Notes: generated by a model not told the origin, from the sequence alone. A DNA stretch of 64,000 nucleotides from an uncultured SAR116 cluster alpha proteobacterium (GCA_902632595.1 CACPDC010000003.1:41001-105000); one strand, 5' to 3'; shown: positions 45,010 to 61,616, counted from the first letter of the stretch. Program-made: numbers and translations.

Positions 45010-46143
45010 ATGTCTCGTTCAAATCTTTTTTTAGTTGTTGGTGTAATTATTGCTGCTTTGGCTATTTTTCTAAATTTTGATACTGAAAATGCCCAAAAAA
45101 GCAAGGTTGCTGATTTAGACAACAAACTTAATATTTATAACTGGTCAGATTATATCGCGGAGGATACGATTTCTAATTTCGAGGCAGAGACTGGTATTCA
45201 GGTTACTTACGATATGTATGATTCTAATGAAGTTTTGGAAGCAAAAATGCTCGCTGGATCCTCCGGTTATGACCTTGTTGTCCCAACTGCCGATTTTCTT
45301 GCGCGTGGTCGTGAAGCCGGGGCCTATCAGGATATGGATATATCAAAAATTCCTAATGCAAAAAATCAGAATCCCCAAATTCAGGCTCAAGCTGATGAAA
45401 TGACGGGTTCAACTAATGCGGGACTCGTATACATGTGGGGTTCCACGGGAATTGCTTATAATGAGGACATGATAGCGGAACGATTTGGAGAAGATGCCCC
45501 CACGGATAGTTGGTCGCTCATTTTAGATCCTGTAAATGCTGCGAAATTGGAAGATTGTGGTATTGCTGTACTAGACGCACCTACAGATGTATTGCCAAAC
45601 ATTATGACCTATTTAGGTTATGACGGTACTTCAATGGAGGAGGCCCATTTTGAGGCTGCGGGAGAAGCTTTAACTGCAATTCGCCCTTATTTAAGATACA
45701 TAAATTCTAGTCAGTCCATTAATGACATAGCAAATGGTGATATTTGTGCAGCTATAATGTGGTCAGGTGATGCGTTTCAAGCTGCATATAGAGCGGAGGA
45801 AGCAGAAAACGGAAATGTGATTGATTATTACATTCCTAATGAGGGTACTAATCTTTGGTTTGATGTCATGGCTATCCCTGCAGACGCTAAAAACATTGAT
45901 AACGCCTATAAATTTGTAGATTACATGATGCGAGCAGATGTAGCCGCAGAGAATGTTAATTACGTTTGGTATGCAAGCGGGAATAAAGCTGCTGAGGCAT
46001 CTATAGATCCTGAGATTTTATCACATCCAGGCATTTATCCCACAGAAAAGGCAAAAGAAAAATTATTTGTTACTCCGGTTTATGACCCCGAAACAGATAG
46101 GATTGTAACAAGGGTTTGGAACCGTTTTCTTGCAGGTAATTAA
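45010..46143 (+). CDS. potF: Polyamine ABC transporter periplasmic binding protein
   Basis: Putrescine/spermidine-binding protein of the PotD/PotF family, 377 residues. A hydrophobic N-terminus (LFLVVGVIIAALAIFLNF) serves as signal peptide or anchor. The mature start LNIYNWSDYIAEDTISNFEAETGI is the family hallmark, and GYDLVVPTADFLARG, MWGSTGIAYNEDM and MWSGDAFQAAYRAEE carry conserved ligand-pocket residues. GGAG lies just upstream of the ATG. A strong hairpin follows the stop. Similarity to PotF is suggested by sequence, but the preferred polyamine needs experiment. Confidence 0.93.
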   Translation: MSRSNLFLVVGVIIAALAIFLNFDTENAQKSKVADLDNKLNIYNWSDYIAEDTISNFEAETGIQVTYDMYDSNEVLEAKMLAGSSGYDLVVPTADFLARGREAGAYQDMDISKIPNAKNQNPQIQAQADEMTGSTNAGLVYMWGSTGIAYNEDMIAERFGEDAPTDSWSLILDPVNAAKLEDCGIAVLDAPTDVLPNIMTYLGYDGTSMEEAHFEAAGEALTAIRPYLRYINSSQSINDIANGDICAAIMWSGDAFQAAYRAEEAENGNVIDYYIPNEGTNLWFDVMAIPADAKNIDNAYKFVDYMMRADVAAENVNYVWYASGNKAAEASIDPEILSHPGIYPTEKAKEKLFVTPVYDPETDRIVTRVWNRFLAGN

Positions 46144-46171
46144 AAGCTGTTAAGAGATTTTGCGTAAGTTT

Positions 46172-46210
46172 TGAAAGCCACCTTTTTTGTGAGTAAATTG
46201 GTGGCTTTCA
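46172..46210 (+). terminator. Strong intercistronic hairpin after potF
   Basis: TGAAAGCCACC pairs with GGTGGCTTTCA over 11 perfect base pairs with a 17-base loop, starting 28 bases after the potF stop and ending 33 bases before potG. A TTTTG follows. It probably reduces readthrough or stabilises the potF message, as seen after the other binding-protein genes in the window. Confidence 0.75.
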
Positions 46211-46242
46211 TTTTGTGAAATTAGGGAGCATCTAGCTATTAT

Positions 46243-47316
46243 ATGGCCCCATTTATTAGTATAAAAAATATCTCGAAAAAATACGGTAATTTTTCAGCAG
46301 TGGATAATGTATCTTTTAATTTGCAAAAAGGTGAATTGTTTAGCCTTTTAGGTCCATCTGGTTGCGGTAAAACCACCTTATTGAGGATTTTAGCTGGCTT
46401 TGAGGTCTCAAACACAGGTTCTTTTGAGATCGATGGTCATGATATGGACAATGTCGATCCTGCGGACCGCCCCGTTAACATAATGTTTCAACACTATGCA
46501 CTTTTTCCCCATATGAGTGTTTTCAATAATATTAGTTATGGATTAAGACGAACATCCTTGCCAAAGAGTGAGATTAAAAGTCGTGTTGAAGAATTGCTAG
46601 AGCTAGTCCGTCTTTCTGGTATGAGTGAGCGCAAACCGAAAACGTTATCTGGAGGACAAAAACAGCGTGTCGCGTTAGCACGGGCACTTGCCAGACGTCC
46701 AAAACTTTTATTGTTGGATGAGCCACTTGCAGCTCTAGACAAAAAGTTGCGCTCTGACACTCAGTTTGAAATTTGTAAAATTCAAGAGCAACTTGGTACG
46801 ACGTTTATTGTGGTAACTCATGATCAAGAAGAAGCCATGACTTTGTCTACTAGAATTGGTGTAATGAATGAAGGAAAATTGATACAACTTGGTACGCCAA
46901 AGGAAATCTACGAACAACCACAGACATCGTTTGTTGCAGATTTTGTGGGTGAAATCAGCTTTCTTGAAGCGGTAGTAAAAGAAAACAAAAATACTCACTG
47001 GTTGATGCAGGCAGCTGTGCCCATTTATGTTTCCAGTGATTCTAATTTTAATGTAGGGCAAAAAGTTAAGCTCGCCCTAAGGCCTGAAAAAATTTCACTC
47101 ACATCAAGGCCAACAGGAAATATAAATGAATTTAAGGTCGATATTTTAGATTTTGCTTTCTACGGAGCAGGTACCCAATATAGGGTGATTGGGCCGGAGG
47201 GTGTAAAATTAAAATTGTATCAGTCTCATAATCAGCCAAGCAAAGCTAATTCACCAATGTTAAAAACAGGGTTTGTAAATTTTTCACCAGAAGCGATTAT
47301 TGTTCTCGAAAGTTAA
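46243..47316 (+). CDS. potG: Polyamine ABC transporter ATP-binding protein
   Basis: ATPase subunit of the polyamine importer, 357 residues. The ABC domain has Walker A GPSGCGKTTLL near 38, the Q-loop FQHYALFPHMSV, the signature LSGGQKQRVALARAL near 136 and Walker B LLLLDEPLAALDKKLR, then VTHDQEEAM. The C-terminal TOBE domain (from about 240) has the LALRPEKISL motif and ends the protein. PotA/PotG-type length and domain order are normal. It is followed by two permease genes with almost no spacing, so the four genes form one operon with potF. Confidence 0.95.
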   Translation: MAPFISIKNISKKYGNFSAVDNVSFNLQKGELFSLLGPSGCGKTTLLRILAGFEVSNTGSFEIDGHDMDNVDPADRPVNIMFQHYALFPHMSVFNNISYGLRRTSLPKSEIKSRVEELLELVRLSGMSERKPKTLSGGQKQRVALARALARRPKLLLLDEPLAALDKKLRSDTQFEICKIQEQLGTTFIVVTHDQEEAMTLSTRIGVMNEGKLIQLGTPKEIYEQPQTSFVADFVGEISFLEAVVKENKNTHWLMQAAVPIYVSSDSNFNVGQKVKLALRPEKISLTSRPTGNINEFKVDILDFAFYGAGTQYRVIGPEGVKLKLYQSHNQPSKANSPMLKTGFVNFSPEAIIVLES

Positions 47317-47319
47317 AAA

Positions 47320-48210
47320 ATGAATTATTTTTTTCAAAGATTTGGACGACAGATTGTAATTTGGTTGCCTCTAGCATGGCTTTTGTTATTTTTTATGCTT
47401 CCACTAATAGAAATGATAAATGTGTCTTTTTCCGAAGCAAGGCGAGCAGTGCCACCCTATAATCCTGCATTTCAATTTGGTCCCGGCGGTATATCGTTCC
47501 AACCAGTGGTAGACAATTACTATTTAATTTACGAATACTGGGAAGATTACTTATGGCCTGCGGTTAATAGCATCCGCTTGGCTTTTTTTTCTACACTATA
47601 TTGTCTTTTATTTGCTTACCCAATGGCCTGGTGGATAGCGCGTTCAAATAAATCCTTACAACATATTTTGCTTATATTGGTATTGATGCCTTTCTGGACT
47701 TCATCTCTGTTAAGAATGTATGCATTAATTGGTTTGTTGAACCCAAACGGCTTTATAAATGATATTTTGATATGGGCTGGTGTTACGGTAATTCCCATCC
47801 AAATGATGCAAACTGACTTTTCAATTTATGCTGGGATGGTTCTTACCTATTTACCATTGATGATCTTACCATTATACGCATCTCTTGTGCGACTAGATGG
47901 TTCCATTATAGAGGCAGCAGCAGACCTTGGTGCCAGAAAATGGGATATATTCAAAACTATAATTCTGCCCCTCAGCATACCTGGCATAATTGCAGGTAGT
48001 TTACTCGTTTTCATCCCCGCTGTAGGCGAATTTGTGATACCAGCTTTGCTTGGGGGACCAGAGCAACTAATGCTTGGAAAAGTCATTTGGACTGAATTTT
48101 TCAGGAATAGAGATTGGCCGGTGGCATCTGCGATAGCGATAATACTTATTGCAATAATCATACTACCAATTGTTTACGCGAGATATCAAGATAAAGAGGG
48201 AATTAGCTAA
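47320..48210 (+). CDS. potH: Polyamine ABC transporter permease (PotH/PotB-type)
   Basis: Six-helix inner-membrane permease, 296 residues. After the first helix (IVIWLPLAWLLLFFMLPLIEM) it has the periplasmic stretch typical of PotH, and the EAA loop is IIEAAADLGARKWDIFKTIILPLSIPG near residues 200-222. VFIPAVGEFVIPALLGG near 227 is characteristic of spermidine/putrescine permeases. It starts 3 bases after potG and overlaps potI by one base (TAATG). Together with potI it forms the membrane channel. Confidence 0.94.
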   Translation: MNYFFQRFGRQIVIWLPLAWLLLFFMLPLIEMINVSFSEARRAVPPYNPAFQFGPGGISFQPVVDNYYLIYEYWEDYLWPAVNSIRLAFFSTLYCLLFAYPMAWWIARSNKSLQHILLILVLMPFWTSSLLRMYALIGLLNPNGFINDILIWAGVTVIPIQMMQTDFSIYAGMVLTYLPLMILPLYASLVRLDGSIIEAAADLGARKWDIFKTIILPLSIPGIIAGSLLVFIPAVGEFVIPALLGGPEQLMLGKVIWTEFFRNRDWPVASAIAIILIAIIILPIVYARYQDKEGIS

Positions 48211-49025
48211 TGCGGTATGATGTCCCACTAATAGTAAAGGTCCTAGCTATTGTTGGATTTGGTATTTTATATATCCCTGTGATGATAATGATGATTTATA
48301 GTTTTAATAGCGGTAAACTCGTAGCTGTTTGGGCTGGCTTTTCAACTAAGTGGTATAGAGAACTTTGGACAGATGATATTTTGCTCTCAGCTTTATATAA
48401 GTCGCTTTTAATTGGTATGAGCTCTGCAACGATTTCCACTTTTTTCGGTTTATTGATCGCTATCGCCTTTGTTAGATTTTCAGCTTTTAGAGCTAGGTTG
48501 ACTTTGAGCCTTGTTGCAAGTGCGCCATTAGTCATGCCTGAAGCAGTAACGGGCTTGTCTATGTTACTACTATTTATAGCTATGGAGACAACTTTTGGTT
48601 GGCCGTCTGGCCGTGGTGTGGATACAATCATGATCGCACATGCAACTTTTGGGATGTGTTTTGCTGCAGTTGTCATTCAAACAAGACTTCGTGATATGGA
48701 TAGATACCTTGAGGAAGCGGCAAGAGATTTAGGAGAAAGGCAGCCTTTTGTGTTCATGTCAATTACCTTGCCGCTTATTTTCCCTTCAATTATTGCTGCA
48801 TGGTTATTATCATTTACTTTAAGTTTCGATGATTTAGTAATTGCAAGCTTTGTTAGTGGACCAGGGAGCTCAACTCTTCCTATCGTAATATTTTCGAAAA
48901 TTCGTCTTGGTGTTTCACCGGAAATAAATGCCATAGCAACATTGATGATACTAACTATTTCTGGAATGGTCTTAGCGGGAAGTATGTTAATATTAAAGCG
49001 AGATAGCAGGGGCAAAAAAAATTAA
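48210..49025 (+). CDS. potI: Polyamine ABC transporter permease (PotI/PotC-type)
   Basis: Second permease of the polyamine importer, 271 residues with six helices. The conserved FNSGKLVAVWAGFSTKWYRELW segment after the first helix is a PotC/PotI hallmark, VMPEAVTGLSMLLLFI follows, and the EAA loop is LEEAARDLGERQPFVFMSITLPLIFPS near residues 168-192. LSFDDLVIASFVSGPGSSTLP near 215 is also family sequence. Last gene of the pot operon; the pyrE gene follows after about 100 bases without a visible terminator. Confidence 0.94.
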   Translation: MRYDVPLIVKVLAIVGFGILYIPVMIMMIYSFNSGKLVAVWAGFSTKWYRELWTDDILLSALYKSLLIGMSSATISTFFGLLIAIAFVRFSAFRARLTLSLVASAPLVMPEAVTGLSMLLLFIAMETTFGWPSGRGVDTIMIAHATFGMCFAAVVIQTRLRDMDRYLEEAARDLGERQPFVFMSITLPLIFPSIIAAWLLSFTLSFDDLVIASFVSGPGSSTLPIVIFSKIRLGVSPEINAIATLMILTISGMVLAGSMLILKRDSRGKKN

Positions 49026-49124: not shown

Positions 49125-49811
49125 ATGATTAGCCATAGTCATACATCACGAAAGGTCATCGCCCGGTCAACCGCAAGAATGTTATTAGATATTGAGGCAG
49201 TCCATGTAAATGCCGCTCAGCCATTTGTTCTAACTTCTGGGGCAAAAAGTCCTGTTTATATTGATTGTCGAAAACTTATATCTTTTCCAGAAATAAGAGC
49301 TACTTTAATGGGTTACTCTGCTTCTTTGCTAGCAGATTCTGTTGGCTTAGAATATTTTGACTCGGTGGCTGGTGGCGAAACAGCAGGCATCCCTTTCGCC
49401 GCTTTTCTTAGCGAGCATCTTGCTCTTCCAATGCAGTATGTTCGAAAAAAAGCGAAGGGCTTCGGCAGGGACGCGCAGATAGAGGGGCACCTAGAACCCG
49501 GAGCAAAAGTTTTATTAATGGAAGACCTAGCGACAGATGGAGGAAGCAAGTTTATGTTTGCCGACGCTTTAAGACTGGCAGGCGCAGAATGTAAACATAT
49601 TTTAGTTATATTCTACTATGATTTGTTTAAAGATGCCAAAAAAAAACTTTCAGAACATGGACTAGAATTACATTATTTGGCTACATGGTGGGATATATTA
49701 GTGGAGTTAAAAACTCATAAAAAATTTGATAGAAAAACGGTCGAAACGGTTGAAGCATTTTTGCATGACCCAATTGGTTGGTCTTTGAAAAATGGTGGTA
49801 AGGGTGCTTAA
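49125..49811 (+). CDS. pyrE: Orotate phosphoribosyltransferase
   Basis: Transfers ribose phosphate from PRPP to orotate to give OMP in pyrimidine synthesis. The 228 residues have FVLTSGAKSPVYIDCRKLISFP near 34, the lysine-rich loop VRKKAKGFGRDAQIEG near 105 and the PRPP-binding motif VLLMEDLATDGGSKFMFADAL near 128, in which the usual V-[T/V]-T-G-G-S reads A-T-D-G-G-S. The length is typical. It opens a run of closely spaced genes that continues with ribokinase, nucleoside hydrolase and nucleoside transport, which links de novo and salvage pyrimidine supply. Confidence 0.94.
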   Translation: MISHSHTSRKVIARSTARMLLDIEAVHVNAAQPFVLTSGAKSPVYIDCRKLISFPEIRATLMGYSASLLADSVGLEYFDSVAGGETAGIPFAAFLSEHLALPMQYVRKKAKGFGRDAQIEGHLEPGAKVLLMEDLATDGGSKFMFADALRLAGAECKHILVIFYYDLFKDAKKKLSEHGLELHYLATWWDILVELKTHKKFDRKTVETVEAFLHDPIGWSLKNGGKGA

Positions 49812-49829
49812 AAAAAGGTAAAAATTTTT

Positions 49830-50708
49830 ATGACAATATATAATCTCGGGTCAATAAATTTAGATTATTTTTATCGATTACCGCATCTTGTTTCTGCTGG
49901 TGAAACGCTTTCAGCAACAGAGTATAGAATTGCTCTTGGCGGTAAAGGTGCTAATCAATCAGTTGCACTCGCCAAAGCAGGCGCAGACGTTTTCCATATT
50001 GGCGCGTTCGGAAGAAAAGATTTAATCTTTTTAGATGAGATGAGTGATGTAGGCGTGAATATCAAAAACGTAGCTTTATTAGAGGCGGAATCAGGGCACG
50101 CTATTGTGATGGTAGATTCAAAAACGGGAGAGAATCAGATAGTGCTCTCTGGCTCTGCCAATTATCAAATCTCTGAAAAACAAATTATATCTGCACTAGC
50201 AAACGCAAAAGAGACCGATTGGGCACTTGCACAAAATGAGACATGTTTAGTTCATGAATTTTTGCTGCGAGCAAGAAAGAAGGGTTTAAAAATTTGTTAT
50301 AGTGCGGCGCCATTCGTCGCAGAACAAACTGCTTCCCTTCTACATCTTACCGATTTATTGGTAGTTAACGAGGGAGAAGCGGATGCTTTGACAAAATTTA
50401 CCAATAAAGATATTCAAGCTCTCGGATTGCCAAATCTTGTTATTACTCTTGGTTCAAAAGGAGCTCGATATATTGGAAACGAGGGCGATTTTTTTGTTTC
50501 TCCATTTAATGTTAATGCAATAGACACAACGGGTGCAGGAGACACTTTTCTTGGCTATTTGCTAGCTTCTTTAGGCCAAGGTTTAACAATGATGCAGGCC
50601 ATGAGATATGGTTCCGCGGCGGCTTCGTTGCAAATTACCAAACCAGGAGCTTTAGCAGCAATTCCAACCATAAAAGAAGTTAAACATTTTTTGAAGAAAA
50701 ACGTATAG
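49830..50708 (+). CDS. rbsK: Ribokinase (PfkB family)
   Basis: Phosphorylates ribose, or another sugar released from nucleosides, at the 5 position. The 292-residue PfkB fold has the N-terminal signature ALGGKGANQSVALAKAGADV near 32 and the C-terminal catalytic motif DTTGAGDTFLGYLLASL near 231 with the base Asp. The start NLGSINLDYFYRLPHL is a typical RbsK opening. It lies 18 bases after pyrE and 10 before the nucleoside hydrolase. In this setting it should handle ribose freed by the hydrolase. A nucleoside-kinase role in the same family cannot be excluded. Confidence 0.88.
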   Translation: MTIYNLGSINLDYFYRLPHLVSAGETLSATEYRIALGGKGANQSVALAKAGADVFHIGAFGRKDLIFLDEMSDVGVNIKNVALLEAESGHAIVMVDSKTGENQIVLSGSANYQISEKQIISALANAKETDWALAQNETCLVHEFLLRARKKGLKICYSAAPFVAEQTASLLHLTDLLVVNEGEADALTKFTNKDIQALGLPNLVITLGSKGARYIGNEGDFFVSPFNVNAIDTTGAGDTFLGYLLASLGQGLTMMQAMRYGSAAASLQITKPGALAAIPTIKEVKHFLKKNV

Positions 50709-50718
50709 GTTTGTTGTC

Positions 50719-51690
50719 GTGTCAGTTCAAAAGATTATTATTGATACAGACCCTGGCATTGATGACGCGATGGCAATACATCAGGCTTTTGCGGATAGTA
50801 GACTGGAAGTGGTTGGTTTAACCACAATTTTTGGGAATGTTTACGTAGACCAAGCAACACGCAATTCTCTCTGGTTGGCAGAGCATGGTGGTTACAATTG
50901 CGCAGTTGCGAGAGGAGCAGAAAGACCAATATCCATAGAGATGAACACCCCCTCTTTCCATGTTCACGGAGAACAAGGTTTTGGTGAAATAACTGAAATC
51001 ATTCCAGTTGGAACAGCAGATCCTAGGCCCGCCCACATTTATTTGTCTGAGACTATAAGAGCTAATACTGGTGAAATCATTTTGTGCCCTATTGGTCCTT
51101 TGAGTAATATTGCAAACCTACTAGATTATGACCCAGAAATTATTAATCATATTAAAAAACTTGTGATAATGGGTGGTGCTGTGCATGTGCTTGGAAACGT
51201 AACCTCATATGCAGAAGCAAATTTTTGGAATGACCCTCATGCAGCTGAAAAAGTGCTTGAGGCAAATTGGGAGATAGACTTGATTGGTCTTGATGTTACT
51301 TCAAATATCCAATTTTCGCATGATGTATTTACTCAAGGGGCAAAAAACTCGCCTCGAATAGGAGGCTTCATTCACGATTTATCTAAATTTTATATTAATT
51401 TTTATAAAACAGTTGTAGGAAAATCTGTTTGTTTGATGCATGATCCGGCAGCAATATTGGCAATTACTGATCCTGATATTTTTACTTTCCAAAAAGCGCC
51501 GCTATCTGTCATACTTGAAGGAGAAAAAGTAGGAAATTCGTTTGTAAGTGAAAATCTGGAAAGAAGGCCTGTAAATGTAGCGGTGAATGTAGATGCAAAA
51601 GCTGCTCAAAAGAAATTTATATCCATTTTTTCTCAAGCTGATTCTGCCTATAAAAAGCGTTTAAATAGTCAAGGAAATAAAAAATTATGA
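50719..51690 (+). CDS. Inosine-uridine preferring nucleoside hydrolase family protein
   Basis: Calcium-dependent N-ribohydrolase that splits ribonucleosides into base and ribose. The 323 residues start with the calcium and ribose motif IIIDTDPGIDDAMAI (cluster of four Asp) near residue 6 and contain GFGEITEI, LCPIGPLSNIANLL and IMGGAVHVLGNVTSYAEANFWNDPHAA near 145-170, all conserved in IunH. The final motif MHDPAAILAIT supplies the last calcium Asp. It starts with GTG and its stop overlaps the following oxygenase (ATGA). Some family members are purine- or pyrimidine-selective; selectivity cannot be read here. Confidence 0.92.
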   Translation: MSVQKIIIDTDPGIDDAMAIHQAFADSRLEVVGLTTIFGNVYVDQATRNSLWLAEHGGYNCAVARGAERPISIEMNTPSFHVHGEQGFGEITEIIPVGTADPRPAHIYLSETIRANTGEIILCPIGPLSNIANLLDYDPEIINHIKKLVIMGGAVHVLGNVTSYAEANFWNDPHAAEKVLEANWEIDLIGLDVTSNIQFSHDVFTQGAKNSPRIGGFIHDLSKFYINFYKTVVGKSVCLMHDPAAILAITDPDIFTFQKAPLSVILEGEKVGNSFVSENLERRPVNVAVNVDAKAAQKKFISIFSQADSAYKKRLNSQGNKKL

Positions 51691-52520
51691 AGGTTCAAAC
51701 GGTAAGCTACAAAGATGAAAAAGCACCGGAAACATTAACACGTTCACTGCATGAAACCGGTTTTGCCATATTAGAGGATCATCCAATAAGTTCTGAGCAA
51801 GTGCAGTCAATTTATAAAAATTGGGGCACATTTTTTGCGAGTGAGTCGAAGAATCAATATCTGCGAGACATGGAGAAGCAGGATGGTTACTTTCCCTTTC
51901 GCTCAGAAAATGCCAAGGGCGTTGATATAAAAGATCTGAAGGAATTCTATCATGTGTTTCCCTGGGGAAGAGTTCCCCCAGAATTAGAAATAGAAACAAG
52001 AAAATTATATAATGACCTCGTTAGTTTGGGTTTAACATTATTGAGATGGCTCAATGAAAACATGCCCCGGGAAATTCTAAACAAATTGTCTGAACCTTTG
52101 GACGGGATGATGCATGGGAGTGAACAAAGTTTACTTCGTATTTTGCACTACCCCCCTATTGAAAAAGACGTTGAACCAGGTGCAATTCGAGCAGCAGCGC
52201 ACGAAGACATTAATCTTATTACTTTGCTTGTGGCAGGTTCGGAGCCTGGACTACAAGCACAAGATAAAGAAGGCAAATGGCATGACATTTCATGTGACTC
52301 AGGAATGATTACAATTAATAATGGAGACATGCTTGCTATGGCGAGTGAGAACTATTTTCCATCAACACCTCATCGTGTAATAAATCCTGGTGGAAAAAAT
52401 AATAATTCACGTTATTCTATACCAATGTTTTTGCATCCAAGACCAGAGGTAATGTTAAATGACGTGCTTTCGGCAGATGGATATCTGCTAAATAGACTTA
52501 AAGAAATAGGACTAAAATAG
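51687..52520 (+). CDS. 2-oxoglutarate/Fe(II)-dependent oxygenase, isopenicillin N synthase-like
   Basis: Non-haem iron oxygenase of the isopenicillin-N-synthase-like fold, 277 residues. The iron ligands fit an HxD...H triad in AAAHEDINLITLLV (His-x-Asp) near residue 172 and TPHRVIN near 232; the 2-oxoglutarate Arg is in SRYSIPMFLHPRP near 246. The N-terminus has TGFAILEDHPISSEQVQ, typical of the family. It overlaps the nucleoside hydrolase gene and is followed 15 bases later by the nucleoside-binding protein gene. The context suggests it oxidises an imported nucleoside or base. The fungal thymine-7-hydroxylase and pyrimidine deoxynucleoside 2'-hydroxylase are of this fold, so a deoxynucleoside or pyrimidine substrate is a reasonable guess. 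It is a guess only. Confidence 0.85.
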   Translation: MKVQTVSYKDEKAPETLTRSLHETGFAILEDHPISSEQVQSIYKNWGTFFASESKNQYLRDMEKQDGYFPFRSENAKGVDIKDLKEFYHVFPWGRVPPELEIETRKLYNDLVSLGLTLLRWLNENMPREILNKLSEPLDGMMHGSEQSLLRILHYPPIEKDVEPGAIRAAAHEDINLITLLVAGSEPGLQAQDKEGKWHDISCDSGMITINNGDMLAMASENYFPSTPHRVINPGGKNNNSRYSIPMFLHPRPEVMLNDVLSADGYLLNRLKEIGLK

Positions 52521-52535
52521 ATAAATGGAGAAATT

Positions 52536-53567
52536 ATGATTAAAAAAATAAATATATTGTCTATCGCCACAACATTAGTTGTCTCTTGTATGGCGATGTT
52601 TTCAGTCATTACAGCAGCTATAGCTGGCTCACATTCTATGAAGCCTGCTGTGATATATGATATGGGTGGCAAGTTTGACAAGTCTTTCAATGAAGGTGTT
52701 TGGAATGGTGTAAAGAAATTTACAGAAGAAACAGGTATAGAGGTCATGGAATTTGAGGTGACCAACGAAACACAAAGAGAACAGGCAATGCGAAGAATGG
52801 TCGAACGCGGTGCTACAATTGTATTGGGAGTAGGTTTTGCTCAAGCTGATGCAATTGCTGCAGTTGCAGCCGATAATCCTGATGTACAATTTTCAATTAT
52901 CGATGTTAGTTGGTTAGACTCACCTAACCTTCGTCAATATGCGTTCAAAGAACATGAGGGTTCGTATCTGGTGGGCGTTGCAGCTGCTACAGCCTCACAA
53001 ACAAATAAGGTGGGGTTTGTTGGCGGAATGGATATTCCACTTATAAGCAGGTTTGCTTGCGGTTATGTGGGTGGAGTGAAATCAGTGGCAGCTAATGCAG
53101 AAATCTTTCAGAACATGACAGGCTCCACCCCATCCGCATGGAATGACCCTGCCAAAGGAGCTGAGCTAACAAGGAGCCAGATTGATCGAGGTGCAGATGT
53201 TGTGTATCATGCCGCTGGGGGAACAGGTATTGGTGTTATTCAGGCAGCAGCAGACGCCGGTAAACTGGCTATTGGTGTAGACTCAAACCAAAACGGTCTT
53301 GCTCCAGGTTCTGTATTAACGTCTATGCTTAAAAGAGTGGATGTTGCTGCATATAATACATTCATGGATTCCAGTAAGGGTCAATTTACATCTGGAGTTC
53401 AGGTTCTTGGCTTAGCCGAAGGTGGGGTAGATTGGGCTTTAGATGAGAACAATGAAAGCTTAATTACAGCGGATATAAAAAAGGCCGTTGCGTCAGCAAG
53501 AGACGCCATTCTTTCTGGCGACGTTTCAGTCCATGATTATTTAGCGGATAATAATTGTCCTTACTAA
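52536..53567 (+). CDS. BMP-family nucleoside-binding protein
   Basis: Substrate-binding protein of a nucleoside ABC importer (BMP/PnrA family), 343 residues. The signal peptide is near MAMFSVITAAIAGSHS; a Cys earlier in the hydrophobic region (LVVSC) makes a lipoprotein possible but the SPase I site is more convincing. The mature start AVIYDMGGKFDKSFNEGVWNGVKKF is a BMP hallmark, followed by VGFVGGMDIPLISRFACGYVGGVK and AAGGTGIGVIQAA, which line the nucleoside pocket. It leads the ABC components of the island, and its partner ATPase starts 27 bases later. Confidence 0.93.
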   Translation: MIKKINILSIATTLVVSCMAMFSVITAAIAGSHSMKPAVIYDMGGKFDKSFNEGVWNGVKKFTEETGIEVMEFEVTNETQREQAMRRMVERGATIVLGVGFAQADAIAAVAADNPDVQFSIIDVSWLDSPNLRQYAFKEHEGSYLVGVAAATASQTNKVGFVGGMDIPLISRFACGYVGGVKSVAANAEIFQNMTGSTPSAWNDPAKGAELTRSQIDRGADVVYHAAGGTGIGVIQAAADAGKLAIGVDSNQNGLAPGSVLTSMLKRVDVAAYNTFMDSSKGQFTSGVQVLGLAEGGVDWALDENNESLITADIKKAVASARDAILSGDVSVHDYLADNNCPY

Positions 53568-53594
53568 AAATAGTAGTTAAGCGAGTTTAACATT

Positions 53595-55175
53595 TTGAAT
53601 ATTGAAAACTCAAAACAGAACGGCGACTTTAAGTCGCCGTTTGCTGTTGAAATAAAAAATATAAATAAGTCATTTGGTCCAGTTCAGGCAAATAAAGAGA
53701 TTAGTCTGAATGTTTCCGGAGGGACCATTCACGGGATTATTGGTGAAAATGGAGCTGGGAAATCAACATTAATGTCAATTTTATATGGGTTTTATCAGCC
53801 GGATAGTGGTGAAATAAAAGTGCATGGAAAGTTGGCTTATTTTAAACAACCATCAGACGCTCTCAGGCTAGGGATAGGAATGGTCCACCAACATTTTATG
53901 TTGGTACCAAATTTCACAGCTTTAGAAAACATAGTTCTTGGAGCTGAGGGGAAGACAGGTCTTTACAAAGGCCTTCAAAATGCGAGGAAAAAACTTGAAA
54001 AGTTAAAACAAGCATATGGCTTAGAAGTTGAACTCGATAGTCTAACTGAAAATCTGCCCGTGGGTATTCAGCAAAGAATAGAAATATTAAAAGCATTATA
54101 TAGAGGTGCAAGAGTATTAATACTTGATGAACCTACAGGAGTTTTAACTCCTCTGGAGACAGAACAGTTATTTGAGATACTGCTAGCCTTAAAGTCAGAA
54201 GGTGTCACCATATTGCTTATAACGCACAAACTTCATGAGATAATGGCAATTACGGACGAAGTTTCGGTGATGCGGCAAGGAAAGATGGTAGCTAACACTC
54301 TTACTAAACATACTTCCCCTGAAATGTTGGCAGAGCAGATGGTTGGCAGATCTGTTCTTGTAAACAATAAATATGAACTTCAAAGTATAGGAAAAGTTGC
54401 ACTTTCTGTAGAACAATTAGGCGTTGTTGATAAAAGAGGTTTTGATAGCCTTAAAAATGCAACTTTCGACCTTCACGCTGGCGAGATTTTAGGGATAGCA
54501 GGGATCGCTGGAAACGGGCAGTCTGAATTATTATCGGTTTTGTCGGGTATTACCCAGCCAAGCCGCGGGTTTTTTAAAATTGAAGAACATTTGTTTGATG
54601 CAAAAAAAAATCCAAACCCACGATTAATGAGACAACTAGGGGTGTCTCACGTTCCAGAAGACCGTCATTCAGAGGGCTTGGTTTTACAATTTCAAGCCTT
54701 TGAATCAGTGATTCTTGGGTATGAAAATAATAAAAAACTAGGGAATGGATTTTTCACCAATCCAGATACTATACAAGCATATTGCTCCCAACTTCAGGAA
54801 GCTTTTGACGTTCGTCCACAAAATCCGAGATTGTATAGTAGTCAGTTTTCTGGAGGAAATCAGCAAAAGTTGGTTCTTTCACGAGAAATTTCATCAACTC
54901 CCAAAATCCTTCTGGTTGGACAACCTACACGTGGAGTCGACATTGGTGCTATCGAATTTATTCACAAAACTCTTATAGGCATGCGAAATAACGGTTGTGC
55001 AATTCTTCTAGTCTCTGTCGAATTAGAGGAAATACTTAGTTTATCAGATAGAATCCTAGTAATGAATTCTGGTGAAATAATGGGAATCGTCCCCAAAATA
55101 ACTGCTACAAAGGCAATGCTTGGAAAAATGATGGCAGGAATTCCAATAGAAGAGGCGAAAGAGGATAAAAAATAA
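53595..55175 (+). CDS. Nucleoside ABC transporter ATP-binding protein (two ABC domains)
   Basis: Double-ABC ATPase of a BMP-linked nucleoside importer (NupA/YufO type), 526 residues. Domain 1 has Walker [17 protein letters not shown] near 48, the degenerate signature [16 protein letters not shown] and Walker [16 protein letters not shown]. Domain 2 begins about 270 ([25 protein letters not shown], Walker-like) with the signature [15 protein letters not shown] and [14 protein letters not shown]. The start must be upstream of [12 protein letters not shown]; the only candidate is TTG at 53595, because no ATG or GTG is in frame. The hairpin at 53619 lies inside these first codons. The permease gene overlaps its stop by one base. 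Confidence 0.92.
53619..53641 (+). terminator. Strong hairpin after the nucleoside-binding-protein gene, inside the ATPase 5' end
   Basis: AACGGCGACTT and AAGTCGCCGTT are exact inverted repeats with a single base between them, so 8 or 9 base pairs can form with a short loop. They start about 52 bases after the binding-protein stop and lie in the first codons of the ATPase if TTG 53595 is its start. Followed by TTTGC rather than a long T tract. It is probably a stabilising or attenuating hairpin. Confidence 0.65.
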
Positions 55176-56290
55176 TGCAGGCGTCTCGGTTGCCAAGATA
55201 TGTAGATATTGTTCTAATTCCGGTTTTAAATTTACTGACAGCATTATTTGTTGCAGGTATTATCATCGCGATAATTGGCGAAAATCCATTTACTGCATTA
55301 TCAGTCATGCTTAAGGGAGCGTTTGTGTATAAGGGGGGACTTGGATACACTCTTTTTTATACCACTAATTTTATTTTTACAGGGTTAGCGGTGGCAGTGG
55401 CTTTTCATGCTATGTTGTTTAACATTGGTGGTGAAGGCCAGGCTGCAATGGGCGGGTTAGGAATTGGATTGGTAGCAATAAGTCTTGGCAGTTATTTACC
55501 TGTTATAATTGTAATTTTTCTAGCTATTTTGGGGTCAGCTTTATTCGGCGCAATATGGGGTGTAATACCAGGTTATTTGCAGGCCAAAAGAGGAAGTCAT
55601 ATTGTAATAACAACAATTATGTTTAATTTTATTGCTTCTGCGATATTGGTTTGGTTGCTGGCTGGTATGCTCATGGCCCCAAACCAAATGTCTCCGGAAA
55701 CCGTTTCTTTTTCAGATGGTGTAGCGTTATGGCAATTCCATGAGATTTTCAACAAATTGGGATTTGATGTCGGAAGATCACCACTTAATTTATCTTTTGT
55801 TATAGCTTTAATATGTTGTTTGCTTGTCTGGCTATTGATATGGCGAACTCGTTTGGGCTACCGAATTAGAGCTACAGGCTTTAGTTTAAAGGCCTCAGCA
55901 TATGCTGGATATAGACCCGAAACCATCATTATCGTAACCATGGCGATTTCAGGGGGTCTGGCAGGCATGATGGCTGTAAATGAAATTCTTGGGGTTCAGC
56001 ACAGAGTTATACTAAATTTTACCTCTGGATATGGTTTTACAGGCATAGCCGTTGCATTGATGGGTCGCAACCATCCTGTTGGGATAATTTTTGCGAGTTT
56101 GTTATTTGGAGCTCTTTTTCAGGGTGGCGCTGAACTTGATTTTGAATTTCAAGCAATCACCCGAGATATGGTATTAATGATACAAGGTCTTATAATTTTA
56201 TTTTCTGGAGCATTAGCATACATGTTTAACCCGGCGCTGGAAAAATTGTTCTTGCGAAATGAACTTATGATGAGGCCAAAAAATGACTGA
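55175..56290 (+). CDS. Nucleoside ABC transporter permease 1
   Basis: Permease of the BPD_transp_2 (branched-chain/ribose-like) type, 371 residues with about ten helices, as in YufP/NupB nucleoside importers. ATNPFTAL-like family sequence appears as IIGENPFTALSVMLKGAF near residue 31, then LFNIGGEGQAAMGGLGIGLVAI near 87 and LGYRIRATGFSLKASAYAGYRPETI near 225, where the last block contacts the ATPase. VALMGRNHPVGIIFASLLFGAL follows near 290. Its ATG overlaps the ATPase stop by one base and its stop overlaps the second permease by 8 bases, so the ABC genes are tightly coupled. Confidence 0.92.
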   Translation: MQASRLPRYVDIVLIPVLNLLTALFVAGIIIAIIGENPFTALSVMLKGAFVYKGGLGYTLFYTTNFIFTGLAVAVAFHAMLFNIGGEGQAAMGGLGIGLVAISLGSYLPVIIVIFLAILGSALFGAIWGVIPGYLQAKRGSHIVITTIMFNFIASAILVWLLAGMLMAPNQMSPETVSFSDGVALWQFHEIFNKLGFDVGRSPLNLSFVIALICCLLVWLLIWRTRLGYRIRATGFSLKASAYAGYRPETIIIVTMAISGGLAGMMAVNEILGVQHRVILNFTSGYGFTGIAVALMGRNHPVGIIFASLLFGALFQGGAELDFEFQAITRDMVLMIQGLIILFSGALAYMFNPALEKLFLRNELMMRPKND

Positions 56291-57260
56291 TTTTTGGTTT
56301 CAATTTGTTCTTACTTTGGATTCAACGTTACGAGTAGCTACCCCTCTAATTTTCTGTGCAATGGCTGGGATCTTCTCGGAGAGGTCAGGAATTATTGATA
56401 TCTCCTTGGAGGGTAAAATGCTTATGGCCGCTTTCGTCGCTGCAGCTGTAGCATACGGGACAGGTTCACCTTGGATTGGCGCTGTTGCTGCTGTTCTTGT
56501 TTCTATCATTGCTAGCCTAATACATGGTTTTGCTTGCATAATTCATCGTGGTAACCAAGTGATATCTGGACTTGCAATAAATATTTTAGCGTCTGGCCTT
56601 ACAGTCATTATCGGGATAGCATTATTTAGACAAGGTGGTCTTACACCGACTCTAACAAAAACCTCAAGGTTTAACTCTATAGAATTACCATTTATAGAAT
56701 TTTTTGAACTACATACTCCAATCTTTGGTGTTATTTATAAACACCTCATATCTGGTCATAATATACTTGTTTGGGCTGCCATAGTAAGTGTGGCTATCAC
56801 ATATTATATATTGTTTAAGACCACCTTTGGTCTAAGGCTTAGGGCAGTAGGTGAAAAACCAGAGGCCATAGATTCCGCTGGAATCTCTGTAACGAAGATG
56901 CGTTTTCAGGCTATTATTATCGCCGGCATTTTATGTGGGCTAGCAGGCGTTTATTTGTCTACCGCTACAGGAGCCGGTTTCGTAAAAGAAATGACGGCTG
57001 GTAAAGGATATATTGCTTTAGCAGCAATGATTTTTGGTAAATGGAGGCCAGTTCCTGCATTATTTGCTTGTTTACTGTTTGGATTTTTAGAGGCCGTCGC
57101 AACACGTATACAAGGAATAGAATTTATATTAATTGGTGAAATATCATCGGATTTGTTAATTGCGCTTCCTTATTTGCTTACGGTAATACTGTTGGCTGGA
57201 TTTATAGGAGGTGTTACCCCTCCCCGAGCTATAGGCCAGCCTTATATTAAGGAACGGTAA
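56283..57260 (+). CDS. Nucleoside ABC transporter permease 2
   Basis: Second permease, 325 residues, of the same BPD_transp_2 family (YufQ/NupC). It shows ATPLIFCAMAGIFSERSGIIDISLEGKMLMAAF near residue 18, where the FSERSG and LEGKML blocks are typical, and FGLRLRAVGEKPEAIDSAGISVTKMRF near 184 for ATPase contact. VGGKGYIALAAMIFG-like sequence appears near 240 (GKGYIALAAMIFGKWRPVPAL). It completes the importer and is followed by cdd after 5 bases. Confidence 0.92.
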   Translation: MTDFWFQFVLTLDSTLRVATPLIFCAMAGIFSERSGIIDISLEGKMLMAAFVAAAVAYGTGSPWIGAVAAVLVSIIASLIHGFACIIHRGNQVISGLAINILASGLTVIIGIALFRQGGLTPTLTKTSRFNSIELPFIEFFELHTPIFGVIYKHLISGHNILVWAAIVSVAITYYILFKTTFGLRLRAVGEKPEAIDSAGISVTKMRFQAIIIAGILCGLAGVYLSTATGAGFVKEMTAGKGYIALAAMIFGKWRPVPALFACLLFGFLEAVATRIQGIEFILIGEISSDLLIALPYLLTVILLAGFIGGVTPPRAIGQPYIKER

Positions 57261-57265
57261 TCTAT

Positions 57266-57670
57266 ATGCTAACTCAAATAGAAAAGCAATTATGTCGGTC
57301 TGCTATTTCAGCTAGACAAAACGCATACGCACCTTACTCAAAATTTAAAGTTGGCGTAGCAATACTCGACGAATTTGGGAAAATGCACTTAGGTGTAAAC
57401 GTTGAAAATGCTGCTTATCCCCAAGGTAGTTGCGCAGAAGCAGGCGCTATATCTGCTATGATCTTATCAGGTAGTAAGCAAATAAAATTGATAGCTGTAA
57501 GTGGAGGGGGATTGGAACTATGCACACCTTGCGGAGGATGCAGACAAAAAATACGTGAATTTGCTAGTCTAGAAATGCCAGTTTTAATATGCAATGAAAA
57601 AAATTTTAAAAAAAGGTTTCTCTTGAAGACATTGTTACCAGTTTCATTTGGTCCGAAAAACCTGTTCTGA
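57266..57670 (+). CDS. cdd: Cytidine deaminase
   Basis: Zinc enzyme that deaminates cytidine and deoxycytidine to uridine and deoxyuridine. The 134 residues have AYAPYSKFKVGVAI near 20, the ligand and catalytic Glu motif NVENAAYPQGSCAEAGAI near 52 and the zinc motif CTPCGGCRQKIREF near 92. This is the small tetrameric type. The position at the end of the nucleoside transport run suits conversion of imported cytidine. It is convergent with upp, 44 bases between the ends. Confidence 0.95.
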   Translation: MLTQIEKQLCRSAISARQNAYAPYSKFKVGVAILDEFGKMHLGVNVENAAYPQGSCAEAGAISAMILSGSKQIKLIAVSGGGLELCTPCGGCRQKIREFASLEMPVLICNEKNFKKRFLLKTLLPVSFGPKNLF

Positions 57671-57714: not shown

Positions 57715-58350
57715 CTATTCAGTGCCATAAATCCTATCGCCCGCATCCCCAAGGCCTGGTAAAATATAAGCGTTTTTATCTAATTCACGGTCAAGCGCTC
57801 CGGCGATTATTGGAATATCTGGATGATGATTGTGAAAGTATTTAATCCCCTCTGGTGCAGCAACAAGGCACACAAACAAAATATTTTTTGCCCCATCTCT
57901 TTTTAAAAAATCAGCAGCTTGTTCAGCTGAACTACCTGAAGCAAGCATCGGATCTACCAAAATAATTTGCCGGTTTTGAATTTGGTCTGGAAGCTTTTTG
58001 AAATATGGCTCCGCCAAATGTGTGTCCGCATTTCTTTGCATACCAATATAACCGATGGGTGCCTCTGGAAGAGTCGCTGATAACGCATCAGCCATTCCAT
58101 TTCCTGCCCGTAGGATTGATACTATACATGGATATGGAGAGGTAAGAATTTTTTGTGTGGTCTTCTCCATCGGCGTTGTTATTTCAGTCTCCTTTACGGA
58201 AAGATGGGAAAATACAGGCCAACTCATAATGTGTCCGATTTCCAATAATGTTTTTCGAAATTCCGGTGAACGTGTGTTCTCGTCTCGCAAAATAGCGAGT
58301 TTATGACTCATTACAGGGTGATCTAGTATAGTCAAAGAATCCATAACCAA
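57715..58350 (-). CDS. upp: Uracil phosphoribosyltransferase
   Basis: Salvages uracil to UMP with PRPP. The 211 residues show SILRAGNGMADALSATLPEAPIGYIGMQR near 80-107, the PRPP-binding motif IILVDPMLASGSSAEQAADFL near 128 and the C-terminal uracil-site motif YILPGLGDAGDRIYGTE, as in all Upp. It is convergent with cdd and divergent from tdk. It should use uracil released by the nucleoside hydrolase, closing the salvage route of the island. The end AGDRIYGTE is exact family sequence. Confidence 0.96.
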   Translation of the reverse strand: MVMDSLTILDHPVMSHKLAILRDENTRSPEFRKTLLEIGHIMSWPVFSHLSVKETEITTPMEKTTQKILTSPYPCIVSILRAGNGMADALSATLPEAPIGYIGMQRNADTHLAEPYFKKLPDQIQNRQIILVDPMLASGSSAEQAADFLKRDGAKNILFVCLVAAPEGIKYFHNHHPDIPIIAGALDRELDKNAYILPGLGDAGDRIYGTE

Positions 58351-58469: not shown

Positions 58470-58514
58470 CTTAAAATTGTTAATTTTCAGGTCCCTTTGC
58501 GAATAGAGAGCAAA

Positions 58515-59099
58515 ATGGCTAAATTGTATTTTTCTTATTCCGCAATGAATGCGGGTAAAACAACAATATTATTGCAGGCCTCTCATAACTATGAGGAAAG
58601 AGGTATGCAAACGCTTCTTCTCACCGCTAAGCTAGATACAAGAGCTGGACCTGGTGTAATAGCCTCTAGAATCGGTCTTAGTGCCGATGCCCTTGCGTTT
58701 TGCAACGATACTAATCTTTTGAGTCTAACTGAAAAATCTAATTTAGAAAAAAAATGCTCTTGCGTATTGGTTGATGAGGCTCAATTCTTGTCAAGAGAGC
58801 AAGTTTGGCAATTGGCCACAATTGCAGATATGCTGGATATCCCTGTTATGTGTTTTGGTTTAAGGACTGATTTTCAAGGAAAATTATTTCCTGGCTCAGG
58901 TGAGTTACTTGCAATCGCTGATGATATTCGAGAAATAAAAACTATATGTCATTGTGGTAAAAAGGCTACCATGGTTGTGAGGCAATTAGAAAATGGTACA
59001 GTGGTCAAAGATGGCGAGCAAATTGAGATAGGCGGTAACGATAAGTATATATCATTATGCAGGCGTCATTGGTCTGAAGTGATGGATGAGAAAACTTAA
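58515..59099 (+). CDS. tdk: Thymidine kinase (type II)
   Basis: Phosphorylates thymidine to dTMP with ATP. The 194 residues begin [22 protein letters not shown], with the P-loop MNAGKTT, followed by the Walker B/base-binding motif [18 protein letters not shown] near 87 and a four-Cys zinc lasso ([11 protein letters not shown] and SLCRRHW) near 156-190. The ORF track starts at TTG 58497; ATG 58515 is preferred because GAGAG precedes it and it gives the normal N-terminus. It fits the nucleoside salvage theme together with upp and cdd, and shows that thymidine can also be salvaged directly. Confidence 0.95.
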
Positions 59100-59101
59100 A
59101 T

Positions 59102-59725
59102 ATGAAATTTAAAGAGAGTGATAGTTGTTTGCTCGTGATTGATGTTCAACTGGACTTCTGCCCAGGTGGAGCCCTTTCTGTAGATCAAGGGGATCATGTT
59201 GTGGAGCCAATTAATAAATTAATGAAATGTTTTAGTAATGTTGTGTTAACTCAAGACTGGCATCCGGAGTCACATTCCAGTTTCGCAAGCTCTCATCAAG
59301 GCAGTAAACCGTTCTCAGAAATACAACTGCCTTATGGCTCACAAACTTTGTGGCCTGACCATTGTATTCAAAATAGTCGAGGTGCTGAGTTTCACCCTGA
59401 ATTAAATACAGCGTATGCACAATCAATAATTCGAAAAGGTTTTCGTCATGAAGTAGATAGTTATTCCGCTTTTTTCGAAAATGACGGTCAAACAGTGACT
59501 GGTCTGCAAGGGTGGCTCTCATCAAAACAGATTAAAAATGTCTATTTAGCTGGCTTGGCAACAGATTTTTGTGTTGCTTATTCTGCTCTAGATGCAGTGC
59601 GCCTTGGTTTTGATGCAACTGTTATTTTATCTGCTTGTCGTGCAATTGACTTGGAGGGCTCATTAGATCGTCAGCTAACAAATATGCAACATGCGGGAGT
59701 AACTTTATTGGAAAAAATTCTTTAG
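59102..59725 (+). CDS. pncA: Nicotinamidase / pyrazinamidase
   Basis: Isochorismatase-fold amidohydrolase that deamidates nicotinamide to nicotinic acid for NAD salvage. The 207 residues have LLVIDVQLDFCPGGAL near 10 (catalytic Asp), TQDWHPESHSSFASSH near 50 (metal ligands), a Lys in IIRKG near 110, and the catalytic Cys in VYLAGLATDFCVAYSALDAVRLG near 147. These are all PncA hallmarks. It starts 2 bases after the tdk stop, so it is likely in the same transcript. NAD precursor recycling fits the salvage context. Confidence 0.95.
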   Translation: MKFKESDSCLLVIDVQLDFCPGGALSVDQGDHVVEPINKLMKCFSNVVLTQDWHPESHSSFASSHQGSKPFSEIQLPYGSQTLWPDHCIQNSRGAEFHPELNTAYAQSIIRKGFRHEVDSYSAFFENDGQTVTGLQGWLSSKQIKNVYLAGLATDFCVAYSALDAVRLGFDATVILSACRAIDLEGSLDRQLTNMQHAGVTLLEKIL

Positions 59726-59804: not shown

Positions 59805-61616
59805 ATGACTCAAGAGTTACGCAATATAGCAATTATTGCCCACGTTGATCATGGTAAAACAACCTTAATTGATTCAATTATGAAACAATCTGGCATGTTC
59901 CGTGATAATCAGTCTATTAGCGAAAGATTGATGGATTCAGGTGAATTGGAAAAAGAGAGAGGTATCACAATTCTTGCTAAGCCAACATCTATTCGCTGGA
60001 AGAATGTAAGAATAAATATCATTGATACACCTGGGCATGCTGATTTTGGTGGAGAGGTTGAGCGTGTTTTACATATGGCTGATGGGGTTATATTGCTAAC
60101 TGATTCTGCCGAAGGTCCGATGCCTCAGACAAAATTTGTTTTAGGTAAAGCACTTACACTTGGCTTAAGGCCAATCGTAATTATAAATAAAGTAGATAGA
60201 CCGGATGGTCGCTCTGAAGAGGTGGTAGACGAGGTGTTTGACCTATTTGTTGCCCTTGAAGCAAATGAGCAGCAGCTTGAATTTCCAATTTTATATGCAT
60301 CAGGTCGCGACGGATGGTGCGTAACGGAACTGGAAGATGAACGCACATCATTAGAACCATTATTGAATTTAATTTTGGAACATGTGCCTCCACCAAAACA
60401 AGATTTAAAGGCGCCTTTCGCAATGCTGGCGACATTACTTGACGCAGACCAGTTTCTTGGAAGATGTCTTACTGGAAAAGTTGTACAAGGGACAGCAAAA
60501 ATGAACGAGCAGGTTCGCTCTTTAGATCTTAATGGTAATATTATTGAACACGGTAGACTAACTAAATTAATGCATTTTGAGGGAACAAACAGAGTGCCTG
60601 TTGATAGGGTTGAAGCCGGTGATATAATTTGCATTGCTGGTTTAGCAAAAACGTCTGTTTCAGATACAATCTGTAACTCAGAACAAAAACAGCCAATTCA
60701 GTCAACACCAATTGATCCTCCCACTATGTCAGTTACCATTACTGTGAATGATTCACCATTTGCAGGCCAGGAAGGTAAAAAAGTCACCTCAACAATGATA
60801 CGCGAACGATTGCTATCAGAGGCAGAGACAAATGTAGCAATTACATTCTCAGAGAGTGATAACAAGGATTCTTTCGAAATCGGTGGCAGGGGCGAATTAC
60901 AACTAGGCGTTCTAATTGAGACAATGCGAAGAGAGGGTTTTGAGCTTACTGTATCAAGACCAAGAGTTCTCTATAAGCAAGAAGAAGGACAGCGTTTAGA
61001 GCCAATTGAAGAAGTTATAATAGATGTCGACTCAGAATATTCAAGTTCAGTTATTGATTCCTTAAATCGTCGCAAGGCTGAAATGTTGGATATGCGCGAG
61101 GTTGGCGCAGGTAAGACTAGACTTACTTTTCTTGCTCCATCACGTGGACTGATTGGCTTTCAAAGCAAGTTTCTTACAGACACGAGAGGCACAGGTGTTA
61201 TCAATCGATTATTCCATAGTTATGCAGAATATAAGGGAGATATTCCTGGGCGGAGAAATGGTGTTTTAATCTCAAATGATACTGGTCAGGCTGTTGCTTA
61301 TGCTTTGTTTAATTTGCAGGATCGAGGGGTAATGTTTATCTCCCATCAAACGCATGTATATCAGGGGATGATTGTTGGAGAGCATAATCGTGATAATGAT
61401 TTGGAGGTAAACGTCCTAAAAGGAAAAAAACTTACTAATGTGCGTGCATCTGGAAATGATGACGCAGTTTCCGTATCTCCGCCACGAAACCTCTCGCTAG
61501 AAGAAATGATGGCTTATTTGAATCAGGACGAATTACTTGAAGTAACGCCGACAACATTGCGCCTTCGAAAGCAATATTTATTGTCGCATGAAAGAAAAAA
61601 AGCGGCGAGAAACTAG
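59805..61616 (+). CDS. typA: Ribosome-binding GTPase TypA/BipA
   Basis: Translational GTPase linked to ribosome assembly and stress adaptation. The 603 residues have the G1 loop IAHVDHGKTTLIDSI near 9, effector loop ERGITILAKPTSI, G3 DTPGHADFGGEVERVL near 73, G4 NKVDRPDGR near 128 and G5 YASGRDG near 164, followed by domains 2, 3 and 5 and the TypA-specific C-terminus with SYAEYKGDIPGRRNGVLIS near 464. The protein ends in a basic tail, KKAARN. It stands in a unit of its own; the gap to pncA is about 80 bases without a visible terminator. Confidence 0.96.
   Translation: MTQELRNIAIIAHVDHGKTTLIDSIMKQSGMFRDNQSISERLMDSGELEKERGITILAKPTSIRWKNVRINIIDTPGHADFGGEVERVLHMADGVILLTDSAEGPMPQTKFVLGKALTLGLRPIVIINKVDRPDGRSEEVVDEVFDLFVALEANEQQLEFPILYASGRDGWCVTELEDERTSLEPLLNLILEHVPPPKQDLKAPFAMLATLLDADQFLGRCLTGKVVQGTAKMNEQVRSLDLNGNIIEHGRLTKLMHFEGTNRVPVDRVEAGDIICIAGLAKTSVSDTICNSEQKQPIQSTPIDPPTMSVTITVNDSPFAGQEGKKVTSTMIRERLLSEAETNVAITFSESDNKDSFEIGGRGELQLGVLIETMRREGFELTVSRPRVLYKQEEGQRLEPIEEVIIDVDSEYSSSVIDSLNRRKAEMLDMREVGAGKTRLTFLAPSRGLIGFQSKFLTDTRGTGVINRLFHSYAEYKGDIPGRRNGVLISNDTGQAVAYALFNLQDRGVMFISHQTHVYQGMIVGEHNRDNDLEVNVLKGKKLTNVRASGNDDAVSVSPPRNLSLEEMMAYLNQDELLEVTPTTLRLRKQYLLSHERKKAARN

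Follow-up and report, generated by a model that had tools for sequence, protein, structure and literature searches.

What does a 2-oxoglutarate (2OG)/Fe(II) oxygenase do among genes for nucleoside import, hydrolysis and ribose phosphorylation? The question is raised by a 64,000-nucleotide stretch of DNA (GCA_902632595.1 CACPDC010000003.1:41001-105000; the window), from a metagenome-assembled genome of the SAR116 cluster (Puniceispirillales). At positions 49125-57670 of the window, nine plus-strand genes run in the order pyrE, rbsK, a nucleoside hydrolase gene (NH), the oxygenase gene (OXY), a BMP-type binding protein gene, a double ABC ATPase gene, two permease genes and cdd. We propose, with a probability of about one half, that the operon serves nucleoside catabolism and salvage and that OXY 2'-hydroxylates pyrimidine deoxynucleosides, replacing the DeoA-DeoB-DeoC route. 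That the substrates of OXY are nucleosides or their bases is highly probable.

In the proposed route, the BMP-ABC importer would take up pyrimidine nucleosides, Cdd would deaminate (deoxy)cytidine, and OXY would hydroxylate C2' of the deoxyribose, converting deoxyuridine to uridine, thymidine to 5-methyluridine and deoxycytidine to cytidine. NH would split the ribonucleoside into base and ribose, the RbsK-like kinase would turn ribose into ribose 5-phosphate, and Upp, encoded next to the operon, would convert uracil to UMP. In gammaproteobacteria that carry udk-nupC-OXY operons, uridine kinase (Udk) would take the OXY product instead. What OXY acts on, where it hydroxylates and which way the flux runs are what we infer here.

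Exchange of OXY with the deo genes

The sequence-only reading had suggested that oxidation of deoxynucleosides precedes the action of the hydrolase and the ribokinase. This order of events gains strong new support from the finding that the operon stands in for deoC and deoA where those are absent, with the substrate itself assigned by inference. BMP-ABC operons without OXY (20 read, plus ten more around BMP genes, with deo genes called by NCBIfam equivalog models) provide the comparison. Among the alphaproteobacteria checked, most such operons encode the importer, followed by cdd, pnp and at least one of deoC, deoA and deoB. The alphaproteobacterial bmp-ABC-cdd-pnp-deoC-deoA-deoB operon shares with the SAR116 operon an orthologous importer (BMP identity about 50-69%) and cdd; the SAR116 operon, by contrast, lacks the phosphorolytic deo genes and has rbsK-NH-OXY upstream of the importer instead. 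In 48 BMP-bearing genomes without OXY, deoC was found 39 times and deoA 44 times (43 genes above cut-off and one split gene). No substitute oxygenase was noticed in the OXY-free BMP operons, in which not every neighbour was identified; deo genes are present instead.

Outside SAR116, genomes in which OXY is linked to nucleoside genes have neither deoA (0/12) nor deoC (0/10 tested), and deoA is present in 22 of the 32 genomes with unlinked OXY. With phylogeny ignored, the difference in deoA content is significant both by genome (Fisher p = 6e-5) and by genus (0/7 linked versus 13/18 unlinked, p = 0.0016). One gammaproteobacterial family is perfectly split: seven udk-nupC-OXY genomes are devoid of deoA, which is found in all five genomes with unlinked OXY. 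A phylum-wide anticorrelation between OXY and deoA was considered and rejected, since deoA is kept in 18 of 29 gammaproteobacterial OXY genomes; only nucleoside-linked OXY shows the pattern. Within the SAR116 order, in which 61 genomes were searched, no deoA or deoC scored above the family cut-offs (0/61, the host genome included). The exchange of OXY for the deo genes at the BMP importer is directly observed, and gene context strongly suggests that OXY first converts deoxynucleosides to ribonucleosides.

Without DeoA and DeoC, a cell could import deoxynucleosides yet lack the usual means of degrading their sugar, and ribose is required by nucleoside hydrolases and by ribokinase. The most likely reaction of OXY is 2'-hydroxylation because the Deo route is absent, because NH, RbsK and Udk need the ribose form, and because fungal and AdaV-type enzymes set precedents for chemistry at C2'. 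In fungi, as described in PMC4787775 (citing Shaffer et al. 1972), thymidine is converted to the thymine ribonucleoside, which is then hydrolyzed. C2' of deoxynucleotides is the site attacked by AdaV-type halogenases, and one AdaV homologue, the halogenase CtNTH, also hydroxylated dGMP to a trace of GMP (PMC11186838). Fungal thymidine salvage comprises a pyrimidine-deoxynucleoside 2'-dioxygenase (EC 1.14.11.3), a ribonucleoside hydrolase and thymine-7-hydroxylase (T7H); the proposed OXY step followed by hydrolysis would share its logic. The SAR116 system differs in being a bacterial operon with an importer and a ribokinase, and no T7H/iso-orotate decarboxylase step was seen in it. No sequence or gene of the fungal 2'-hydroxylase was found in the open-access literature.

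The main rival to 2'-hydroxylation, in line with the modified nucleosides also considered in the sequence-only reading, is 2'-O-demethylation, in which RNA-derived 2'-O-methyluridine or 2'-O-methylcytidine would yield formaldehyde and a ribonucleoside for NH or Udk. Two other 2OG oxygenases, FJS and PHYHD1, catalyse this reaction (PMC12709175) and likewise channel modified nucleosides into salvage; the demethylated product would suit NH, RbsK and Udk equally, and a CNT or BMP importer would serve as well. The known demethylases, however, belong to PF05721 (PhyH), a domain not detected in OXY, which on these grounds was rejected as a PHYHD1/FJS family member; the accessible part of PMC12709175 reports no operon for either enzyme. 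Moreover, demethylation gives no reason for linked OXY to coincide with the loss of deoA and deoC or to take the place of deo genes at the importer, and we regard it as unlikely.

Several points weigh against deoxynucleoside 2'-hydroxylation as a substitute for the Deo route. SAR116 genomes without OXY also lack deoA and deoC, and the absence of these genes is thus non-discriminating inside the order. Among the nine genomes that have BMP and lack both OXY and deoC, four also lack deoA; other solutions must therefore exist. Many gammaproteobacterial OXY genes have no nucleoside neighbours and reside in genomes that keep deoA and deoC, so Deo loss is no prerequisite for OXY. The linked gammaproteobacteria form one clade, which implies few independent linkage events, perhaps three or four as judged from the tree. 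RbsK and NH, which score below the equivalog cut-offs, have presumed rather than firm specificities.

Genomes G423 (L151), G120, G135 and G241 have BMP; deoA, deoC and the OXY subfamily, at the threshold used, were not found in them.

The oxygenase and its active site

OXY (51687..52520, plus strand; 277 residues) is, by its sequence, a member of an uncharacterised PF03171 subfamily with one solved structure, that of Shewanella oneidensis SO_2589 (3on7). PF03171 (58 bits, cut-off 23) and PF14226 (DIOX_N) are the only domains detected. Its counterpart in an uncultured SAR116 genome, the nearest relative to have a named record, is 93% identical. The uncharacterised 3on7 is the best PDB match by both sequence and structure (49% identity over the full length); it has no assigned function, and most of the gammaproteobacterial homologues read have no nucleoside neighbours. 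It is followed by 3oox, also uncharacterised, and then by fungal T7H (23% identity). The open-access literature yielded nothing on the function of the OXY subfamily, 3on7 or 3oox.

The AlphaFold2 model of OXY (pLDDT 89.6) was built from an alignment of 58 homologues, across which the iron ligands H172, D174 and H229 and the 2OG residues R242 and S244 are invariant, and the active site is therefore intact. The iron motif, H172-E-D174, is of the HxD hydroxylase type with an invariant Asp and does not match the HxG/A motif of halogenases; AdaV, a remote sequence match in the PDB search, and CtNTH differ from OXY in having that halogenase motif and in acting on nucleoside monophosphates.

T7H is the nearest characterised fold (TM about 0.8), and the sequence-only reading had named it as sharing the oxygenase fold. 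In a T7H role OXY would oxidise the free base released by NH, an idea favoured by T7H being the best characterised structural match. The substrate-contact residues speak against it, as judged by equivalences from a profile-to-sequence alignment rather than superposed coordinates. Of the six T7H residues compared (listed in PMC4787775), Arg190 is retained as R151, and Phe292, which stacks against the base, as the invariant F248. By contrast, Tyr217, which covers the base and at which Phe or Trp is also allowed, is replaced by an invariant Ile (I175), and Asn87, Glu122 and Asn294, polar contacts to the base, correspond to Q65 (conserved in 44 of 58 homologues), H89 (invariant) and H250 (55 of 58). 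With four of the six contacts changed, the base is probably held differently in OXY than in T7H, and a thymine-7-hydroxylase identity was rejected on these residues. In addition, the udk-nupC-OXY operons have no hydrolase that could release a free base, and their uridine kinase points to a nucleoside. A thymine branch is thus not supported, and a free-base T7H role is very improbable.

The same comparison bears on oxidation at another position of the nucleoside, either C1' of deoxyuridine, which would give deoxyribonolactone along with uracil, or the 5-methyl carbon of thymidine or 5-methyluridine. Fungi are known to have an activity that 1'-hydroxylates deoxyuridine, and T7H, as the nearest characterised fold, itself oxidises a 5-methyl group. 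C1' oxidation, however, would leave NH, RbsK and Udk unneeded as the next step, and for 5-methyl oxidation the T7H substrate residues are mostly not conserved; such alternatives seem improbable.

A wider claim, and a tentative one, is that OXY represents a pyrimidine-deoxynucleoside 2'-hydroxylase of bacteria, perhaps the first to which a gene can be assigned, and that an oxidative route displaced DeoA, DeoB and DeoC in the abundant SAR116 clade and several other lineages.

The host genome encodes a second PF03171 oxygenase (L001, G000 contig 31, 6965-7474), beside which lies an open reading frame that may encode the last part of the large subunit of a molybdenum hydroxylase.

Conservation and nucleoside contexts of OXY

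The placement of OXY in a pathway of nucleoside import, hydrolysis and ribose phosphorylation, put forward from the sequence, holds in related genomes, both in the SAR116 order and in three other alphaproteobacterial families. The NH-OXY-BMP order is retained across the SAR116 order, in which the proteins are about 60% identical, so the gene arrangement is not due to chance. In the two SAR116 families that have the operon, NH is the immediate upstream neighbour of OXY, in the same orientation, in 36 of the 39 genomes whose context was read; among the remaining three, two are interrupted by contig ends and one (G017) is without NH. All 37 SAR116 genomes that encode a BMP protein at least 75% identical also have OXY. 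In one other SAR116 genus and in G017, OXY adjoins a divergent BMP system with about 30% identity (L077, L088, L089, L092; G010, G036, G026, G017). The NH-OXY pair is retained in that genus, indicating that OXY outlasts an exchange of the importer, whose ligand may differ from the usual BMP ligand. An aminotransferase/MFS region is found upstream of OXY in G017.

Beyond SAR116, the block rbsK-NH-OXY-BMP-ATPase-permease-permease recurs in three further alphaproteobacterial families (G156; G176/G280; and G621, here with cdd). In another alphaproteobacterial family (G209), a CNT-type nucleoside transporter gene lies 5 bases upstream of OXY, and udk, nupC and OXY follow one another in one direction in seven genomes, all from a single gammaproteobacterial family. 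OXY is thus linked to nucleoside genes in three arrangements, NH-OXY-BMP, udk-nupC-OXY and CNT-OXY. Uridine kinase and nucleoside hydrolase have ribonucleosides as common substrates; the OXY product is therefore likely to be a ribonucleoside, and a free-base substrate is disfavoured.

The linkage could be incidental and the OXY substrate unrelated to nucleosides, given that many carriers have OXY alone and that members of the superfamily use many substrates. Against this stand the recurrence of three nucleoside gene arrangements in unrelated families, the retention of OXY after importer replacement, and the 37 SAR116 genomes, none of which has the close BMP orthologue without OXY. Coincidence is accordingly an unlikely explanation.

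Two further observations concern the spread of OXY. In an alphaproteobacterial family (f9; L066-L068), the gene directly after unlinked OXY encodes about 111 residues, is similar in three genomes and was identified as a 2Fe-2S ferredoxin (PF00111) where scanned; it is a possible redox partner of OXY, or the proximity is plain synteny. The alphaproteobacterium G367 (L055) retains deoA, and its OXY falls within the udk-nupC clade of gammaproteobacteria, which suggests acquisition by horizontal transfer.

Operon layout, neighbours and biological meaning

Family models confirm all nine plus-strand genes proposed in the initial reading, in their order and place. The pyrE gene (49125..49811), encoding orotate phosphoribosyltransferase (NF001729 above cut-off), is followed by the gene of an rbsK-like PfkB sugar kinase, a presumed ribokinase (49830..50708; PF00294), for which the best NCBIfam model is TIGR02152 (ribokinase; 210 bits, under the 300-bit cut-off). 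NH (50719..51690, GTG start; PF01156, IU_nuc_hydro) is RihC/UriH-like: the best-scoring models are RihC and UriH, both below cut-off, and its PDB matches are the ribonucleoside hydrolases 4kpo and 6zk1. Downstream of OXY come the BMP/PnrA-type, presumed nucleoside-binding protein (52536..53567; PF02608), whose PDB relatives include Lbp (7x0r), BmpA/BmpD and TmpC (2fqw), the double ABC ATPase of the importer (53595..55175, TTG start; PF00005 twice), permease 1 (55175..56290) and permease 2 (56283..57260), both PF02653 (BPD_transp_2), and cdd for cytidine deaminase (57266..57670; TIGR01354 and NF004064 above cut-off). The gaps measure 18, 10, 15, 27 and 5 bases, within the 27-base maximum given before. 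Overlapping junctions number three rather than the four first counted: NH/OXY (4 bases), ATPase/permease 1 (1 base) and permease 1/permease 2 (8 bases). No RNA element was found in the operon at Rfam gathering scores, and promoter-like sites in it are no more frequent than in shuffled sequence.

As to a system of nine genes, the core of rbsK, NH, OXY and importer is borne out, and pyrE proves to be a variable passenger outside it. This gene heads the run in the host genus and some relatives; in the other alphaproteobacterial families with the NH-OXY-BMP block, no pyrE was detected close to the operon. As had been noted, upp and tdk lie beside the operon, just downstream: upp, for uracil phosphoribosyltransferase, adjoins it on the minus strand (57715..58350; TIGR01091 above cut-off), followed by tdk, for thymidine kinase, on the plus strand (58497..59099; NF003300 above cut-off). 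Synteny of upp with the operon is retained in many relatives, and that of tdk is retained too. Next come pncA, for nicotinamidase (59102-59725; NF008623), and typA (59805-61616), both of which stay downstream of the operon throughout the genus and in part of the family. Just upstream (45010-49025) lies an ABC importer, judged by eye to be of the polyamine type (binding protein, ATPase, two permeases), which stays beside pyrE in close relatives.

A SAR116 pyrimidine-usage cluster described in 2025 (PMC11698098), with a pyrimidine ABC transporter, uridine ribohydrolase, upp, cdd and tdk, is of the same kind as the present operon; the main text of that paper mentions no oxygenase, dioxygenase or deo replacement. 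What is new here is that the operon contains an oxygenase gene, that this gene is repeatedly linked to nucleoside genes and that it takes the place of deo genes.

If OXY is indeed a deoxynucleoside 2'-hydroxylase, it would provide a gene for an activity known from fungi for decades, apparently without a sequence in the open-access literature, and would show that deoxynucleosides can be broken down by an oxygen-dependent path other than the textbook one. The structural-genomics orphan 3on7 would gain a testable function, and nucleoside 2'-hydroxylation a biocatalyst. SAR116 lives alongside Prochlorococcus, which exudes thymidine (PMC11698098), and the oxygenase would explain how these bacteria, which have neither DeoA nor DeoC, can draw on both sugar and base of deoxynucleosides.

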